Shown here piece after piece: positions 4,451 to 12,241 of a stretch of DNA of 12,241 bases (position 1 is the stretch's first letter; each line of letters opens with the position of its first letter). Origin of the DNA: a bacterium (lineage in GTDB: Bacteria > CG2-30-53-67 > CG2-30-70-394); contig JAJRSX010000096.1 of NCBI GenBank assembly GCA_024278555.1, forward strand, positions 1-12,241, in the 5' to 3' direction. A program made the translations under genes and the position numbers. The notes under the pieces are model-generated. The model had not been told where the DNA came from, ran no database searches, and saw only the letters and a program-made list of their open reading frames with translations.

Positions 4451-5143
4451 CTACTTGGCGGGCCCGACGGAGATCAGCTCCACCTCGAAGATGAGGGTCT
4501 GGTCGGCGAGGGGGCCGCGCTCGTTGTAGGCGAGGTCGGCGGGGATGAAGAGCTGCCACTTCGCCCCCTCCTTCATGAGCTGGAGCCCCTCGGTCCACCC
4601 CTTGATCACCCCGTCGAGGCGAAAGGTGGCGGGCCTGTTACGGCGGTAGGAGCTGTCGAACTCGGTGCCGTCGATCTTGGTGCCGCGGTAGTGGACGGTC
4701 ACCGAGTCGGTGGGGCCGGGAGACTTGCCGTGGCCCTCCCGCAAAACCTTGTACTGGAGGCCGCTGGGGAGGGTCACCACCCCCTCCTTCTTGGCATTGG
4801 CGGCGAGGAAGGCGCGCCCCTGATCCCGCGCCTGCTCCAGCTCCTTGGCCTTCTTGTCGCGCTGCGCCGCGGAGATCCGCCGCTTGAGGGCGACCAGGGT
4901 ATCGCGCATCTCCGCGGCGCTCATCTCCGTTGCGCCGCCGGCGATGGCCGCCTCCACCCCACGCACCATCGCCTCGGCGTTGAGGGTGACCCCCTGCCGC
5001 TTCATGTCGCCCCCTACCTGGTAGCCGATGGCGTAGCTCACCCGGTCGTCGTCGCTCGCCAGGGTGGGCGGCGGCCCGGCGTGGGCGGCGAGGGTGGGGC
5101 GGAGGAGGAGGGCGGTGAGGGTGGCGGCGAGGATCGGTCTCAT
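4451..5143 (-). CDS. FKBP-type peptidyl-prolyl cis-trans isomerase, exported (FkpA/Mip-like)
   Basis: From the chosen start the protein has 230 residues. A signal-peptide-like N-terminus (about 1-22, LAAHA) is followed by an alpha-helical Mip/FkpA-type N-terminal region with AIGYQVGGDMKRQG (38-51) and a charged helix (about 90-118). The FKBP fold spans about 125-226. Pocket residues are visible: Tyr152, Phe162-Asp163, Val179-Ile180, Trp183, Tyr206 and Phe219. It catalyses proline isomerisation and chaperones folding in the periplasm. An ATG seven codons upstream (5164) is in frame, but the ATG at 5143 has AAGGAG at ideal spacing and gives a cleaner signal peptide. It probably heads the unit with the adaptor and ATPase genes. 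No strong cysteine or lipobox is present, so it is not an obvious lipoprotein. Confidence 0.93.
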   Translation of the reverse strand: MRPILAATLTALLLRPTLAAHAGPPPTLASDDDRVSYAIGYQVGGDMKRQGVTLNAEAMVRGVEAAIAGGATEMSAAEMRDTLVALKRRISAAQRDKKAKELEQARDQGRAFLAANAKKEGVVTLPSGLQYKVLREGHGKSPGPTDSVTVHYRGTKIDGTEFDSSYRRNRPATFRLDGVIKGWTEGLQLMKEGAKWQLFIPADLAYNERGPLADQTLIFEVELISVGPAK

Positions 5144-5148
5144 GGGGG

Positions 5149-5154
5149 CTCCTT
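5149..5154 (-). promoter_or_regulatory. Ribosome binding site that fixes the FKBP start
   Basis: AAGGAG on the minus strand lies five bases before the ATG at 5143. It selects this ATG over the in-frame upstream ATG at 5164, whose extra seven residues (MPPQGAP) would blunt the signal peptide. Confidence 0.8.
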
Positions 5155-5190
5155 GGGGGGGCAATGGGGTGCAGGATAGGCGACGCAGGC

Positions 5191-5220
5191 AAAAAAAGGG
5201 CCGCCCCGCGGGGCGGCCCT
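5191..5220 (-). terminator. Intrinsic terminator of the multicopper oxidase gene
   Basis: Bases 5197-5220 are a perfect 24-bp palindrome (AGGGCCGCCCCG and its complement), giving a very stable GC-rich hairpin. On the minus strand it is followed by seven T residues (A run at 5191-5197 on plus). It starts about 25 bases after the oxidase stop codon. This is a textbook Rho-independent terminator for the gene to its right and separates it from the FKBP unit. The FKBP promoter must therefore lie in the 47 bases between 5190 and 5144, or read-through must occur. An AGGATA (5173-5178; TATCCT on minus) could be a -10 box. Confidence 0.9.
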
Positions 5221-5245
5221 TGTCCTGCTTCCGGAACTCCGAGAT

Positions 5246-7723
5246 TTACGGCGAGACCACGTAGGGCCGCATCATCTCGTTGTCCTCATGCTCGACGATG
5301 TGGCAGTGCCACACGTAGAGGCCGGCGACGTCGAAGGTCGCCTTCACCCGGGTGATCTCCCCCGGGTAGGCAATCACCGTGTCCTTCATCCCCATCTCCC
5401 ACGGCTCGGGCGGCCGGTTGGTGCCGGGGATCGCCAGGCCGGTGAGGGGGTCGAAGAGCTGCCGGTCCACCACCTCGAAGCGCACCAGGTGGAGGTGCAT
5501 CGGGTGGCCGTCGACGGTGGTGTTGTAGATCTCCCACACCTCGGTGTTGCCCACGGTGGGGTTCTCGGTGACATTCACCATGCGGATCGAGCCGTCCGCC
5601 ATGGCCACCGCCGCCGGGGTGGAGACGCCGCTGGTGTCGGTCCACTTGAGGGGCGTGGAGACGCCGGCGACCGGATCATAGGTCCCGAGCAGGGCTGCCT
5701 TCGGCGCCATCTCCACACCACCCGCGGCAGTGCAGGTGGCGAGGAAGTTGGGATCCCCTGGAGGGCCGACAAAGAGGGTGGTGATCGCCCCGGCCGGCGA
5801 GATGGAGACGCACACCTGGCCCGACCCCTCCTCGTTGAGAGAGACGGTGCGGGTCGGCCCGTTGGCCACCGGCAGGGCCGGCTCGGCGTTGAGCACCAGC
5901 CGCTTCGGGTTGGTGGCGGCGTTCAGGTTGGGGGTGATGCCGTCGGCCAGCACCGGGTCGGTGGGTGAGGCACCCAGGGGGCCGCCGAGGGCCGCCGGGG
6001 TGGCGTTGACCACGAACTGCATCACCTGGCCGGTGGTGGCGGGATCGGCGGGGATCGTCGGGAAGCCGCCGAAGGGGGCGTCAGGCGCGGTGTTGTACAT
6101 GGTCACCACGGTACCGTTGGGCACCTTGGAGAAGTCGACGATCACGTCGGCCCGCTCGGCGAGCCCCATGAGCAGCGCCTGCTGCTTGCTCAGGAACTTC
6201 ACCTTGGCCGGCTTGGTGCCCAGACCGTCGTGGATCTTGGCGTCGCCCGCCTTGATCTCCACCACCTGCGGCAGGAAGCCCTGCTCGGCGCCGATCTGGA
6301 AGAAGGGGAGCTGCTTGATCTTGACCTTCGGCTTCTTGCCCTTCTTGCCCTTCTTGCCCTTCTTGCCCTTCTTGATCTCCGTGTAGCTCATCGACAGGTT
6401 GAGGAAGCGTGAGTTGCAGCCGTTGAGCAGGCGGAAGCGATAGCGGGCCGGGGCGACCTCCATCACCGGCCAGGTGGTGCCGTTGACCACCATGGTGTTG
6501 AAGAAGGCCTCCGGGTTCCAGATCGGGGCGATGTCCGAGGTGGGGACGTAGGGGCCGGTGAAGCCGTCGAAGAAGGTGCGACTCGCCGGGTAGAAGAGGG
6601 AGCCGTCGGCGTTAAACGACCGGTCCTGGATCACCACCGGGATCTCCCGGTACTTCTCCCGCTGGCCGCCGAGGGCGGCGGGGAAGTTGGTGGTGGCGAG
6701 GGTCTCACCGGCGACCGGCGCCGGCCCGGGAAGGACTGCCGGGAGGCCGGTGGTGCCGTCGACGGCGCCGTCATACACGCCGCCGCGCACCAGCCAGAAG
6801 CCGGCCGGGCCGGCGTAGACGTTGGAGCGGGTCATCCCCAGGGCGTGGTCGTGGTACCACAGGGTGGCGGCCGGCTGGTCGTTGCGGTAGAGGTAGTCGG
6901 CGTAGCCGAGGTTGCCCGGGTTGGTCCCCGGCACCACGTTGCTCGCGTCGTCGAACATCGTGCCGCTGGTGGCGTACCCGGCCGGGATGTTGTTCGCCGC
7001 CGGCAGCCACCACGCCTCCGGGTAGCCGTCGGAGTGGGTATCCACATGGGCACCGTGGACGTGGGTGACGATCGGCACCGGCCCGGTGTAGGGGGTCGGG
7101 TCGAGGGTCATGCAGTCGGTACGGTTGGTGCCGTCGGTGCACCCCACCGCCGGCGGGTTGGCCCAGTGGAGGGTCTGGTCGACCGGCAGCAGATGCGGGA
7201 TGTAGTTACACGCCGGGTCGGTGAGCGGCATCAGGGAGGCGTTGCAGGCGATCGGGTCGGCCACCAGCTCGTTGCGCCAGCGCACCGCGACCGGCGCCAT
7301 GGAGGTGGTCTCCAGGGTGTAGGCCGGGTAGTTGAACTGGGAGTTGGGGGCCGGGGCGATGCCGACGCCGCCGCCCAGGGCGGTGGAGTCGGGAAGGGGG
7401 TCCGCCTCCGGGCCGTAGGACCACACGGTGGTCGGAGGGAAGGCGTCCAGCCGGCCGTTGAGGGTGTTCCAGACCCCGCCCGGCAGGATCTGCTGCTGGA
7501 ACTGGCGCACTGCGATGTCGTAGTTGTTGGCCACCGGCAGCCCGGTAAGCGGATCGGTGGTGGTGTTCATCACCGGCGGGATCACCAGCGGGGTGACGAA
7601 CTTCGGGATGGTGAGGGGGTCGAGGGTGCCGCCCGGCAGGGGCTGGGCCTGCGCCGTCAGAGCGGTGGTGACCGCCAGGAGCAGGGCTCCGGTGGCGATC
7701 CCGAGTCGTCTTGTGAGTCTCAT
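5246..7723 (-). CDS. Exported multicopper oxidase, CotA/bilirubin-oxidase-like, with Lys-Gly repeat
   Basis: The 825-residue protein starts with a signal peptide (about 1-26, LTAQAQ). All four copper-binding blocks are present. They are HVHGAH (221-226), WYHDHALG (289-296), HPMHLHL (740-746) and HCHIVEHEDNEMM (806-818). His740, Cys807, His812 and axial Met817 fit the type 1 copper, and the other histidines the trinuclear cluster. Context around the ligands (SDGYPEAWW, NVYAGPAGFWLV) is CotA-like. Such enzymes oxidise phenols, bilirubin-type pigments or metal ions such as Mn(II), Fe(II) or Cu(I) and reduce oxygen to water. At 825 residues it is much longer than CotA (about 500), with inserted loops, including 451-464 (KKG repeats). 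GGAGGAA sits five bases before the ATG. It is a single-gene unit with its own sigma-54 promoter and terminator. The substrate is unknown. Confidence 0.95.
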   Translation of the reverse strand: MRLTRRLGIATGALLLAVTTALTAQAQPLPGGTLDPLTIPKFVTPLVIPPVMNTTTDPLTGLPVANNYDIAVRQFQQQILPGGVWNTLNGRLDAFPPTTVWSYGPEADPLPDSTALGGGVGIAPAPNSQFNYPAYTLETTSMAPVAVRWRNELVADPIACNASLMPLTDPACNYIPHLLPVDQTLHWANPPAVGCTDGTNRTDCMTLDPTPYTGPVPIVTHVHGAHVDTHSDGYPEAWWLPAANNIPAGYATSGTMFDDASNVVPGTNPGNLGYADYLYRNDQPAATLWYHDHALGMTRSNVYAGPAGFWLVRGGVYDGAVDGTTGLPAVLPGPAPVAGETLATTNFPAALGGQREKYREIPVVIQDRSFNADGSLFYPASRTFFDGFTGPYVPTSDIAPIWNPEAFFNTMVVNGTTWPVMEVAPARYRFRLLNGCNSRFLNLSMSYTEIKKGKKGKKGKKGKKPKVKIKQLPFFQIGAEQGFLPQVVEIKAGDAKIHDGLGTKPAKVKFLSKQQALLMGLAERADVIVDFSKVPNGTVVTMYNTAPDAPFGGFPTIPADPATTGQVMQFVVNATPAALGGPLGASPTDPVLADGITPNLNAATNPKRLVLNAEPALPVANGPTRTVSLNEEGSGQVCVSISPAGAITTLFVGPPGDPNFLATCTAAGGVEMAPKAALLGTYDPVAGVSTPLKWTDTSGVSTPAAVAMADGSIRMVNVTENPTVGNTEVWEIYNTTVDGHPMHLHLVRFEVVDRQLFDPLTGLAIPGTNRPPEPWEMGMKDTVIAYPGEITRVKATFDVAGLYVWHCHIVEHEDNEMMRPYVVSP
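6332..6373 (-). repeat. 9-bp tandem repeat encoding Lys-Lys-Gly
   Basis: CTTCTTGCC on the plus strand occurs four times in perfect tandem plus a final CTTCTT, 42 bases in all. On the coding strand it encodes KKGKKGKKGKKGKK (residues 451-464 of the multicopper oxidase), followed by more basic residues (PKVKIK). The perfect unit identity makes copy-number change by replication slippage likely. Because the unit is 9 bp, such changes keep the frame. Confidence 0.95.
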
Positions 7724-7818
7724 CGAGGTTCCTCCAAACAGGGAAGGGGGGTATGGGGTGTGCGCCGAGGCCGTCGGACTCTCCTCCTGCGTCCCCGGTG
7801 CGGGACAAAGGCGGGTAA

Positions 7819-7834
7819 TGCAAGGGGGGTGCCA
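7819..7834 (-). promoter_or_regulatory. Sigma-54 (-24/-12) promoter of the multicopper oxidase gene
   Basis: The minus strand reads TGGCAC, five C, TTGCA. GG and GC fall at the required spacing, and it matches the canonical TGGCAC-N5-TTGCW at every informative position. The predicted transcription start is near 7808, giving an 85-base leader. A short stem (GTCCC 7791-7795 with GGGAC 7802-7806) lies at the start of that leader, and an AGGAGGAG at 7781-7788 without a nearby start codon lies within it. The adjacent gene upstream encodes a sigma-54 activator, which strongly supports the call. Confidence 0.88.
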
Positions 7835-7852: not shown

Positions 7853-7904
7853 GGACTACGAAATAACCATTGTTTTCCGTAGTCGCCTGTTTTCCGTAGT
7901 CGCC
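7853..7904. promoter_or_regulatory. Candidate activator binding sites: 17-bp tandem repeat plus inverted half-site
   Basis: TGTTTTCCGTAGTCGCC occurs twice, perfectly and back to back, at 7871-7887 and 7888-7904. GGACTACGAAA at 7853-7863 is the same core in the opposite orientation, so the nearest pair makes an inverted repeat around AT-rich DNA. The set spans about -45 to -96 relative to the predicted sigma-54 start. These are good candidates for enhancer sites of the neighbouring Fis-family activator. A different repressor or anti-activator is an alternative. Confidence 0.65.
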
Positions 7905-7928: not shown

Positions 7929-7950
7929 TGACACCCGTCCGGGGGTGACA
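7929..7950. other. Imperfect palindrome between activator and oxidase genes
   Basis: TGACACCC (7929-7936) and GGGTGACA (7943-7950) are inverted copies matching at 7 of 8 positions around a 6-base centre. It lies about -121 to -142 from the oxidase start, where sigma-54 enhancer sites are common. It also lies only 15 bases after the activator stop codon, where a terminator could be. There is no T-run on the minus strand, which argues against an intrinsic terminator. Confidence 0.45.
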
Positions 7951-7964
7951 GGCGGCGGCCTCGC

Positions 7965-9320
7965 TTACGATAGGCCGTACCGCTTCAGCTTGCGGTACAG
8001 GGTGCGCTCGCTGATCCCGAGGGCATCGGCGGTGTGGCGCCGGTGGCCGTGGTGGCGGGCGAGGGCGTCGGCGAGGTAGATCCGCTCCGACTCCGCCGGT
8101 GGCGGTGGCATGGCCCCCACCCGGCCGGCAACACCGACCCGGTCGGTGGCCACCGCAGGGGTGTGGTCTTGCCGCTCGCGGATCGCGCGCAGGACGGTCT
8201 CCGCCTCGATCTTTCCCATGGGGGAGTAGGCGGCGGCCACCTGGAGGATATTCCTGAGCTCGCGCACGTTGCCCGGGTAGGGGTAGCCCTTCAGGGCCTC
8301 CACCGCCGCCTTCGAGATCCGATAGGCGGGGCGGTTCGGCGGCGGCGGGATGTGGCGCAGGAGCTCCGCCACGATCAGCGGCAGGTCCTCCATCCGATCG
8401 CGCAGGGGCGGCAGCTCCACGGTGAAGCAGGCGATCCGGTGGAAGAGGTCCTCGCGGAAGGCCCCCGCTGCCACCTCCTCCCAGAGGGTCCGGTTGGTGG
8501 CGGCGACGATCCGCACGTCCACCTTCACCACCCGGTCACCGCCCACCCGCCGCACCTCCTGGCTCTCGAGGACACGCAGGAGCTTCGCCTGGACGGCGAG
8601 GGGCATCTCGCCGATCTCGTCGAGGAAGAGGGTGCCGCCGTGGGCGAGCTCCACCATCCCCTTGCGCTCCCCCACGCTGTCGGTGAAGGCGCCGCGCTCG
8701 TGGCCGAAGATCTCGCTCTCGAAGAGGGTCGCGGGCACCGCCGCGCAGTCGAGGCAGAGGAAGGGGCGCCTGGCCCGTTCCGAGTGCTGGTGGATGAAGC
8801 GGGCGGCTAGCTCCTTGCCGGTGCCGGTCTCCCCGACCAGGAGGACCGGACCGACCGACCGGGCGGCCGAGGTGAGCGCCTCCACCATCTCTAGGAAAAG
8901 GTGCGAGCGGCCCACCATCCGCCGCTCCCCCGGACGGGTGCCCACGCGGCCGGGGTGGTCGGCGAGCTCCTCCACCGTCTCGGCGTAGTAGCGGGTGCCG
9001 TCGGCGGCGGTGATCGGGTAGAGGTGGACGCGCACCCAGCGGATCTCGCCCTCGGCGTCGTAGTGGGTGTGGAGGCAGGCGTGGGGGAGGCCGGTGGCGC
9101 GGGCGTGGGCCAGGGGGCACTCCTCCCCGTCCTGGTCACACGGCCGCGGCCGGTGGTGGGAGACCTCGTGGCACGGCCGCCCGACCACCCCGCCGGCGCG
9201 GGGGGCGAAGGTCTGCTCCCAGGCGCGGTTCGTTGCGACTACCCGCAACCCCTCGTCGAGGACCATGAAGGGACGCTCGTGGGTCTCCAGCCACGCCTGT
9301 AGATCGAAACTCGGCCCCAT
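7965..9320 (-). CDS. Sigma-54-dependent transcriptional activator (PAS - AAA+ - Fis HTH)
   Basis: The 451-residue protein has an N-terminal PAS-like sensor (about 15-118). An AAA+ domain follows, with Walker A GETGTGKE (163-170), loop GAFTDS (210-215), Walker B TLFLDEIGE (230-238), VAATNR (272-277) and the NVREL block (351-355). A Fis-type helix-turn-helix ends it (about 412-450, SERTLYRKLKRYG). It would bind enhancers and use ATP to open sigma-54 promoters. There is no receiver domain, so the signal is probably sensed directly by PAS. The PAS has Cys50, Cys61 and Cys68 (C-x10-C-x6-CP), plus Cys83 and several histidines, suggesting a metal, heme or redox centre. The loop is GAFTDS rather than GAFTGA, keeping the key threonine. 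The next gene downstream, the copper oxidase, carries a sigma-54 promoter and is the likely target. A GGGAG precedes the ATG. Confidence 0.94.
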   Translation of the reverse strand: MGPSFDLQAWLETHERPFMVLDEGLRVVATNRAWEQTFAPRAGGVVGRPCHEVSHHRPRPCDQDGEECPLAHARATGLPHACLHTHYDAEGEIRWVRVHLYPITAADGTRYYAETVEELADHPGRVGTRPGERRMVGRSHLFLEMVEALTSAARSVGPVLLVGETGTGKELAARFIHQHSERARRPFLCLDCAAVPATLFESEIFGHERGAFTDSVGERKGMVELAHGGTLFLDEIGEMPLAVQAKLLRVLESQEVRRVGGDRVVKVDVRIVAATNRTLWEEVAAGAFREDLFHRIACFTVELPPLRDRMEDLPLIVAELLRHIPPPPNRPAYRISKAAVEALKGYPYPGNVRELRNILQVAAAYSPMGKIEAETVLRAIRERQDHTPAVATDRVGVAGRVGAMPPPPAESERIYLADALARHHGHRRHTADALGISERTLYRKLKRYGLS

Positions 9321-9396
9321 GGCGTTGTCTCCCAGCCTCCTGCACCGTCTTCCTGACGCTGGAGGGATCCGGGCGGTGGTCGATCCCTCTCTTCCA

Positions 9397-9412
9397 TATA
9401 TTTAGCAATATA
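9397..9412. promoter_or_regulatory. AT-rich inverted repeat, probable activator promoter zone
   Basis: TATATT (9397-9402) and AATATA (9407-9412) form a perfect 6-bp inverted repeat around TAGC. They sit in the only strongly AT-rich island of the region, about 80 bases before the activator start. It is a plausible -10 region and/or operator for the minus-strand activator gene; the hexamers are not assignable. Confidence 0.4.
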
Positions 9413-9485
9413 CGTACCGGCCGGCCCCGATCCCGCCGCGGACCGCCCGGGCGACAACACAGGCCTCTTTCCTTGCGGGAAAAAC

Positions 9486-9526
9486 GTCGTATTTTACCTC
9501 ACGACAACGTCATGACACGATACGAC
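9486..9526. promoter_or_regulatory. Spaced inverted repeat GTCGTAT / ATACGAC with central palindrome
   Basis: GTCGTAT (9486-9492) and ATACGAC (9520-9526) are perfect inverted copies separated by 27 bases. The 8-bp palindrome GTCATGAC lies between them (9509-9516). The arrangement looks like a regulator site upstream of the radical SAM gene, but chance cannot be excluded. Confidence 0.35.
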
Positions 9527-9577
9527 ACCATCCGCTTATGGCGTCGCCCCCCCGGCCCCCACCACCACACCGGGGGT

Positions 9578-11385: not shown

Positions 11386-12241
11386 GAGTCTGTCGGACTT
11401 TCGCTGTCGTTGGACTTGCGACGGTTGGTGGAGGCGTACCAAGGGCGAGGCTCCAAGGCGCACCACCCGGCGGTGTTGCTGTCCCTGCTGTTCTACGGCT
11501 ACGCCACGGGGGTCTTCTCCTCGCGCAAGATTGAACATGCGACCTATGACTCGGTCGCCTTTCGCTATCTGGCTGCCGACACCCATCCGGACCACGACAC
11601 CATCGCCACCTTTCGCCGCCGGTTTTTGAAGGAGCTCGGGCCGCTGTTCGTCCAGATTCTGGAGATGGCCCACGAGATGAAGTTGTTGAAGTTGGGCCAG
11701 ATCAGCCTGGACGGGACCAAGATCCACGCCAACGCGAGCAAGCACAAGGCGATGAGCTGGGGCTATGCGACGCGTCTGGAAGCGCAGCTCCAGGAAGAAG
11801 TGAACGAGCTGATGAAGCACGCCGAGACGGCGGATCAGGAGGACCTCCCGGACGGGATGAGCCTTCCGGCGGAGATCGCCCTCCGCGAGACGCGGTTGGC
11901 CGCGCTGGCGGCGGCGAAAGAGAAGATCCAAGCCCGCGCCCAAGAGCGGTTCGAGCGCGAACAGGCCGCCTACGAGGCCAAGCAGGCCGAGCGAGCGCGG
12001 AAGGCACGAGAGCGTGGCAAGAAGCCGGGAGGACGGCCACCGAAGCCACCCGAGGCGGGTCCTCAAGAGAAGGAGCAAGTCAACTTCACCGATGAAGAGT
12101 CGCGGATCATGCCGACGTCCAGCGGCGGATTCGAGCAGGCGTACAACGCCCAAGCGGCGGTGGACATGGAGACGCAGCTCATCGTTGAGCAGCATGTCAC
12201 GCAGCACCCCAACGACAAGCAGGAAGTCGTACCGGCGCTAG
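11386..12241 (+). mobile_element. IS1182-type insertion sequence remnant, left part, continuing past the window
   Basis: The first base after the radical SAM stop codon begins GGAGTCTGTCGGACTTT (11386-11402), which resembles terminal sequences of IS1182-type elements as I remember them. Transposase coding sequence starts within about 10 bases after this. Codon use is less GC-extreme than in the preceding genes (more AAG, GAA, TTG), consistent with transfer. The right end, the second inverted repeat and any target duplication lie outside the window, so element boundaries are not proven. Confidence 0.7.
11410..12241 (+). pseudogene. IS1182-family transposase, N-terminally truncated, 3' end outside window
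   Basis: The frame is open from the radical SAM stop (11383-11385) to the window end. It contains blocks typical of IS1182/IS5-superfamily DDE transposases: FYGYATGVFSSRKIE (28-42, counted from the TTG at 11410), FRYLAADTHPDHDTIATFRR (51-70) and LDGTKIHANASKHKAMS (100-116). Asp101 is the first catalytic aspartate. A basic coiled-coil linker (about 175-215) and QAYNAQAAVD with the second aspartate follow; the catalytic glutamate would be beyond base 12241. Family members usually begin with roughly 35-45 more residues before this point. Here those are replaced by the end of the radical SAM gene. No ATG exists before codon 87, and TTG 11410 is the only plausible start. It is likely a dead copy, unless a non-ATG start yields a short active form. 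Confidence 0.8.

Follow-up and report, generated by a model that had tools for sequence, protein, structure and literature searches.

A putative sigma-54 promoter between the genes for a one-component activator and a CotA-like multicopper oxidase

The closest described systems are multicopper oxidases of Myxococcus and Pseudomonas for which control by sigma-54 has been reported or predicted. In Myxococcus xanthus, the regulator CorR controls the curA operon, which includes CuoA and carries four putative sigma-54 promoters, and expression of the operon is regulator-dependent (PMC3707914). In Pseudomonas putida GB-1, predicted sigma-54/IHF promoters are associated with mnxG and mcoA (PMC11930936). 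The regulator MnxR is of the sigma-54 type, and Pseudomonas sp. MS-1 loses Mn oxidation on insertion into rpoN, a defect that was complemented (PMC11409713). An earlier sequence-only reading of the locus analysed here did not know sigma-54 control of a CotA-like oxidase as a standard arrangement; for multicopper oxidases, such control has these precedents. The paper on the Geobacter RpoN regulon mentions neither copper oxidases nor OmpB.

The locus lies in a stretch of 12,241 nt, referred to as the window, with the following features:

7965-9320, minus strand: gene for a one-component sigma-54 activator with a PAS domain (Cys/His motif), an AAA+ domain and a Fis HTH, L1 loop GAFTDS (Pfam, motifs)
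7819-7834, minus strand: predicted -24/-12 sigma-54 promoter TGGCACCCCCCTTGCA (exact match, genome-wide enrichment, chance estimate)
5246-7723, minus strand: gene for an exported CotA-like multicopper oxidase of 825 aa with four copper-ligand motifs (Pfam PF07731, PDB matches)
5196-5221, minus strand: intrinsic terminator after the oxidase gene (11-pair stem, 9 G-C, T run)
4451-5164, minus strand: gene for an FKBP-type peptidyl-prolyl isomerase (Pfam PF01346/PF00254)

As in the CorSR/CuoA system, a multicopper oxidase gene adjoins that of a sigma-54-type activator, together with putative sigma-54 promoters. CorSR, however, is a copper-responsive two-component system of kinase and response regulator, in an operon with a copper ATPase, whereas the window encodes a one-component PAS activator with no copper-export ATPase alongside. 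The Mnx system resembles the window in having multicopper oxidases under predicted sigma-54 promoters. It differs in that MnxS1/S2-MnxR is a two-component system encoded in a separate putative operon, while the one-component activator of the window adjoins the oxidase; in addition, MnxG and McoA are Mn oxidases. At 11410-12240 of the window, an IS1182-family transposase gene starts 25 nt past the stop of a radical SAM gene and is cut by the window end.

The sequence TGGCAC-N5-TTGCA had been described as a consensus-perfect promoter on the minus strand, 95 nt ahead of the oxidase start and downstream of the activator gene, and each of these points held: TGGCACCCCCCTTGCA at 7834-7819 shows 0 mismatches, the oxidase ATG is at 7723, and the activator stop, at 7965, is about 130 nt away. 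The site has GG at -24, GC at -12 and the fixed spacing, and its single deviation from the longer consensus YTGGCACGNNNNTTGCW is the G after TGGCAC. It is the sole exact match in the window, where the 2 other matches carry 2 mismatches each. A transcription start had been expected near 7808, the same position that we calculated as a prediction from the -12 element at 7820. Under a first-order Markov model of the 241-nt intergenic stretch, the probability of an exact, correctly oriented site arising there by chance is about 4.5e-5. Across the complete set of 211 contigs (3.06 Mb), TGGCAC-N5-TTGCW was found at 27 sites as compared with 0 for the reversed control pattern, and a single rpoN gene is present (TIGR02395, 438 bits for a cut-off of 277). 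This enrichment and the presence of rpoN make it very likely that the -24/-12 consensus is in use in the source organism. The site at 7834-7819 is very probably a real sigma-54 promoter. The predicted structure of the 5' leader RNA was no better than that of shuffled sequences, and an Rfam search gave no match.

The product of the upstream gene has the composition of an enhancer-binding protein, with an AAA+ domain bearing Walker motifs, sensor I and arginine finger, and a Fis-type HTH. Its Pfam matches are PF00158 (3e-64) for the AAA+ sigma-54 interaction domain, PF02954 (5e-13) for the Fis HTH, and PF08448; a PAS domain and a lid complete the protein. The motifs GETGTGKE (Walker A, by alignment), GGTLFLDE, AATNR, FREDLFHR and PGNVREL are intact, and Walker B, sensor I, arginine-finger and sensor II motifs are kept. 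The L1 loop is GAFTDS as compared with the canonical GAFTGA, with a G-to-D change. Such GAFTD loops are common in nature and account for 26 of about 165 GAFT[GD] loops in 60 genomes, roughly 139 being GAFTG. The L1 variants taken to remain active in Desulfovibrio include GAFTDA (PMC4641369), though in one study sigma-54 was not pulled down by VfmH, whose loop is GAFTDA (PMC10714721). The PAS domain carries the motif C-[HY]-x-x-[ST]-H-x(4)-P-C...C...H-x-H, whose Cys and His residues may act as metal or redox ligands. This motif is common to many multi-domain proteins of other genomes, only some of them sigma-54 activators; the PAS subtype (window 8958-9320, loci L134-L152) occurs in activators and in other large proteins, probably sensor kinases. 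Sites resembling -24/-12 promoters also lie upstream of the activator gene itself, CCGGTACGTATATTGCT in the window (9320-9540) and ATGGCATGTCAGTTGCT in a congener (L105, 1408), and this gene may be sigma-54 dependent too.

The oxidase contains all four copper-ligand motifs (HVHGAH, WYHDH, HPMHLH and HCHIVEHEDNEM) and matches CotA-type PDB chains with E values down to 1e-54; its predicted fold is settled by sequence. CotA-type oxidases (PDB 1gsk, 7z5p) share the four copper motifs and are its best sequence matches. On the other hand, the window protein is longer (825 vs about 513 aa), with a signal peptide and large insertions that include a KKGKKGKK Lys/Gly-rich stretch. The Lys/Gly-rich insert KKGKKGKKGKKGKK lies in mid-oxidase (window 6300-6400, minus strand). 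The N-terminal signal sequence has an RR pair, and classical Tat motifs are common among relatives of the oxidase. A PHROGs search with the oxidase gave no match. The terminator reported behind the gene is real, with the 11-pair stem and T run at 5221-5196. The proposal of a closed unit does not hold: closure had been deduced from the terminator alone, and the FKBP gene, just past that terminator, is lost together with the oxidase gene in the congener.

Upstream of the promoter, three candidate elements were located:

7854-7884, minus strand: dyad GACTACGGAAAACAATGGTTATTTCGTAGTC, candidate activator-binding site, -76 to -46 (single genome occurrence)
7888-7904, minus strand: upstream direct copy of a 17-nt repeat, half-site at -93 to -82 (sequence)
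7929-7950, minus strand: imperfect dyad TGTCACCC-N6-GGGTGTCA, second candidate activator site, -142 to -121

The enhancer-like repeats claimed for this region do exist, as an exact 17-nt tandem pair and an inverted half-site. The element GACTACGGAAA occurs three times between -93 and -46, twice in direct orientation and once inverted. The tandem repeat is perfect and contains GACTACGGAAAA at -93 to -82 and -76 to -65, the inverted half-site copy is at -55 to -46, and the second direct copy and the inverted copy make up the dyad GACTACGGAAAACAATGGTTATTTCGTAGTC. Slippage could give the tandem pair; it leaves the inverted third copy unexplained. The dyad is centred at about -61, near the polymerase footprint. 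Since most sigma-54 promoters of Desulfovibrio are no more than 100 nt from the nearest activator site (PMC4641369), this promoter-near position is not disqualifying. The TGTCACCC-N6-GGGTGTCA dyad may be due to chance or be a piece of the 3' end of the activator gene. No further copy of GACTACGGAAAACAATGGTTATTTCGTAGTC was found elsewhere in the genome. Footprinting by alignment with two other oxidase loci (L026 and L067) revealed nothing, their sequences being too diverged outside the promoter.

Conservation of the activator-oxidase pair in related genomes had been named as a check, and a search of 59 other genomes did not find the pair. A set of 80 oxidase loci drawn from many phyla contained two (L051 and L053) with a sigma-54 activator near the oxidase within the fetched flanks, both activators being unrelated to that of the window. 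A strong -24/-12-like site was found upstream of the oxidase in 5 of 72 loci (L026, L044, L051, L067 and L094) vs 1 of 72 on the reverse strand. For the majority of related oxidases, both an activator close by and a -24/-12 site are missing. At L067 there is also a heavy-metal P-type ATPase upstream. An FKBP isomerase resembling the window's, often adjacent, was present in 13 of the 80 loci (L023, L026, L027, L030, L032, L034, L037, L041, L045, L075, L078, L085 and L098), from Nitrospirae, Delta- and Gammaproteobacteria and others. From these counts, the FKBP isomerase is a recurrent neighbour of the oxidase and the activator a local one, and the isomerase is likely a functional partner of the oxidase family.

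Both the source genome and the congener carry a paralogous activator (about 55%) whose HTH is similar to that of the window activator. The paralog genes (L122 and L123) are divergent from a gene for a flavoprotein oxidoreductase (Pfam Pyr_redox_2), sulfide:quinone-reductase-like by our reading, with -24/-12-like sites in the gap and, in L123, an NrfD gene nearby. The search for a binding motif that the window shares with the paralog loci returned short words only, and the dyad motif is absent from the paralogs' intergenic regions.

The sister-genome comparison comprised one congener, G001, whose genome is 94% complete. Synteny with the window extends over its genes for radical SAM, the activator and HlyD, and the oxidase and FKBP genes are absent from the syntenic locus; no oxidase relative was found anywhere in this 94% complete genome at an E value of 1e-40. 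The activator ortholog (L105, 1435-2859) is full-length and 70% identical to that of the window, with its L1 loop, Walker A and sensor I broken: GETGTGKE is changed to GEAGTSKE, GAFTDS to GGGPGS, AATNR to AAARR and NVREL to NVDEL. At 90 AAA+ columns invariant in four intact outgroups, the congener protein departs at 28 and the window protein at 12, whereas the PAS domains of both are at about equal distance from the outgroups. An activator with a damaged motor in a genome that lacks the oxidase is what would be expected if activation through sigma-54 was of use only as long as the genome had the oxidase, which fits the view that the sigma-54 work of the activator served the oxidase. The decay is seen in a single comparison, and other causes could account for it.

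Altogether, these data lead us to regard as probable that a sigma-54 promoter drives the oxidase gene and is opened by the adjacent activator bound to the GACTACGGAAA repeats. It is improbable, in our estimation, that the promoter is real and another activator of the genome drives it, the adjacent gene acting elsewhere. At least 10 GAFT[GD]-type activators are present in the source genome by the pattern used, the activator-oxidase pair is not conserved, and the local L1 loop is GAFTDS; nevertheless, adjacency, the repeats unique to this locus and the damage to AAA+ motifs in the ortholog of the oxidase-less congener speak for the local gene. We give very little credence to an unused -24/-12 match, with oxidase transcription coming chiefly from an undetected sigma-70-family promoter or by read-through out of the activator gene. 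The two genes lie on the same strand, 241 nt apart, and no terminator was called between them, which would allow read-through, but the low chance probability of the site in that gap and the repeats upstream of it argue against this, as does the lack of any sigma-70-like call in the intergenic region.

Within control by the adjacent activator, a further alternative concerns the repeats, which could be the target of some other protein, a repressor or a nucleoid protein, while the activator uses the TGTCACCC dyad further upstream. The closeness of the -76 to -46 dyad to the polymerase is in line with this, as are its single occurrence in the genome and the lack of the motif in the paralogs' intergenic regions despite the similar HTH. 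Yet the half-sites reach -93, and the Desulfovibrio spacing (PMC4641369) accommodates an activator there. We hold this alternative to be rather unlikely.

Sigma-54 control by the adjacent activator thus remains the best reading, with support from the congener, where the oxidase is absent and the activator damaged. Promoter use, binding of the activator to the repeats, the signal and the oxidase substrate are inferred. According to this model, sigma-54 RNA polymerase would transcribe the oxidase gene from the promoter at 7834-7819, and the one-component activator encoded upstream, its Cys/His-rich PAS domain sensing a redox or metal-related signal, would bind the GACTACGGAAA repeats just upstream of the promoter and open the closed complex. 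The transcript would end at 5221-5196 and yield an exported CotA-like oxidase acting in the envelope, with the neighbouring FKBP isomerase probably serving as its folding helper. A more specific and doubtful version is that the Cys/His PAS domain directly senses copper or redox state and switches on an oxidase-FKBP module, the motor domain decaying once the oxidase is lost. The congener is a natural experiment linking activator and target, and the FKBP gene that recurs next to the oxidase suggests a folding partner for this enzyme family.

Of the other oxidase loci, that of Aromatoleum buckelii (L051) is similar to the window in its order of sigma-54 activator, -24/-12-like site and family oxidase. 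Its activator, however, is a receiver-type NtrC protein in an operon with a kinase and a PhnD-like protein, with a sensor domain unrelated to that of the window; its site is weaker (score 0.89), and its oxidase has a classical Tat motif. The locus described here would add a one-component activator with a Cys/His PAS domain to the few cases of sigma-54-controlled multicopper oxidases. The arrangement is a variation on known sigma-54 control, in which the type of sensor, the FKBP neighbour and the existence of a congener with a damaged activator and no oxidase are new.
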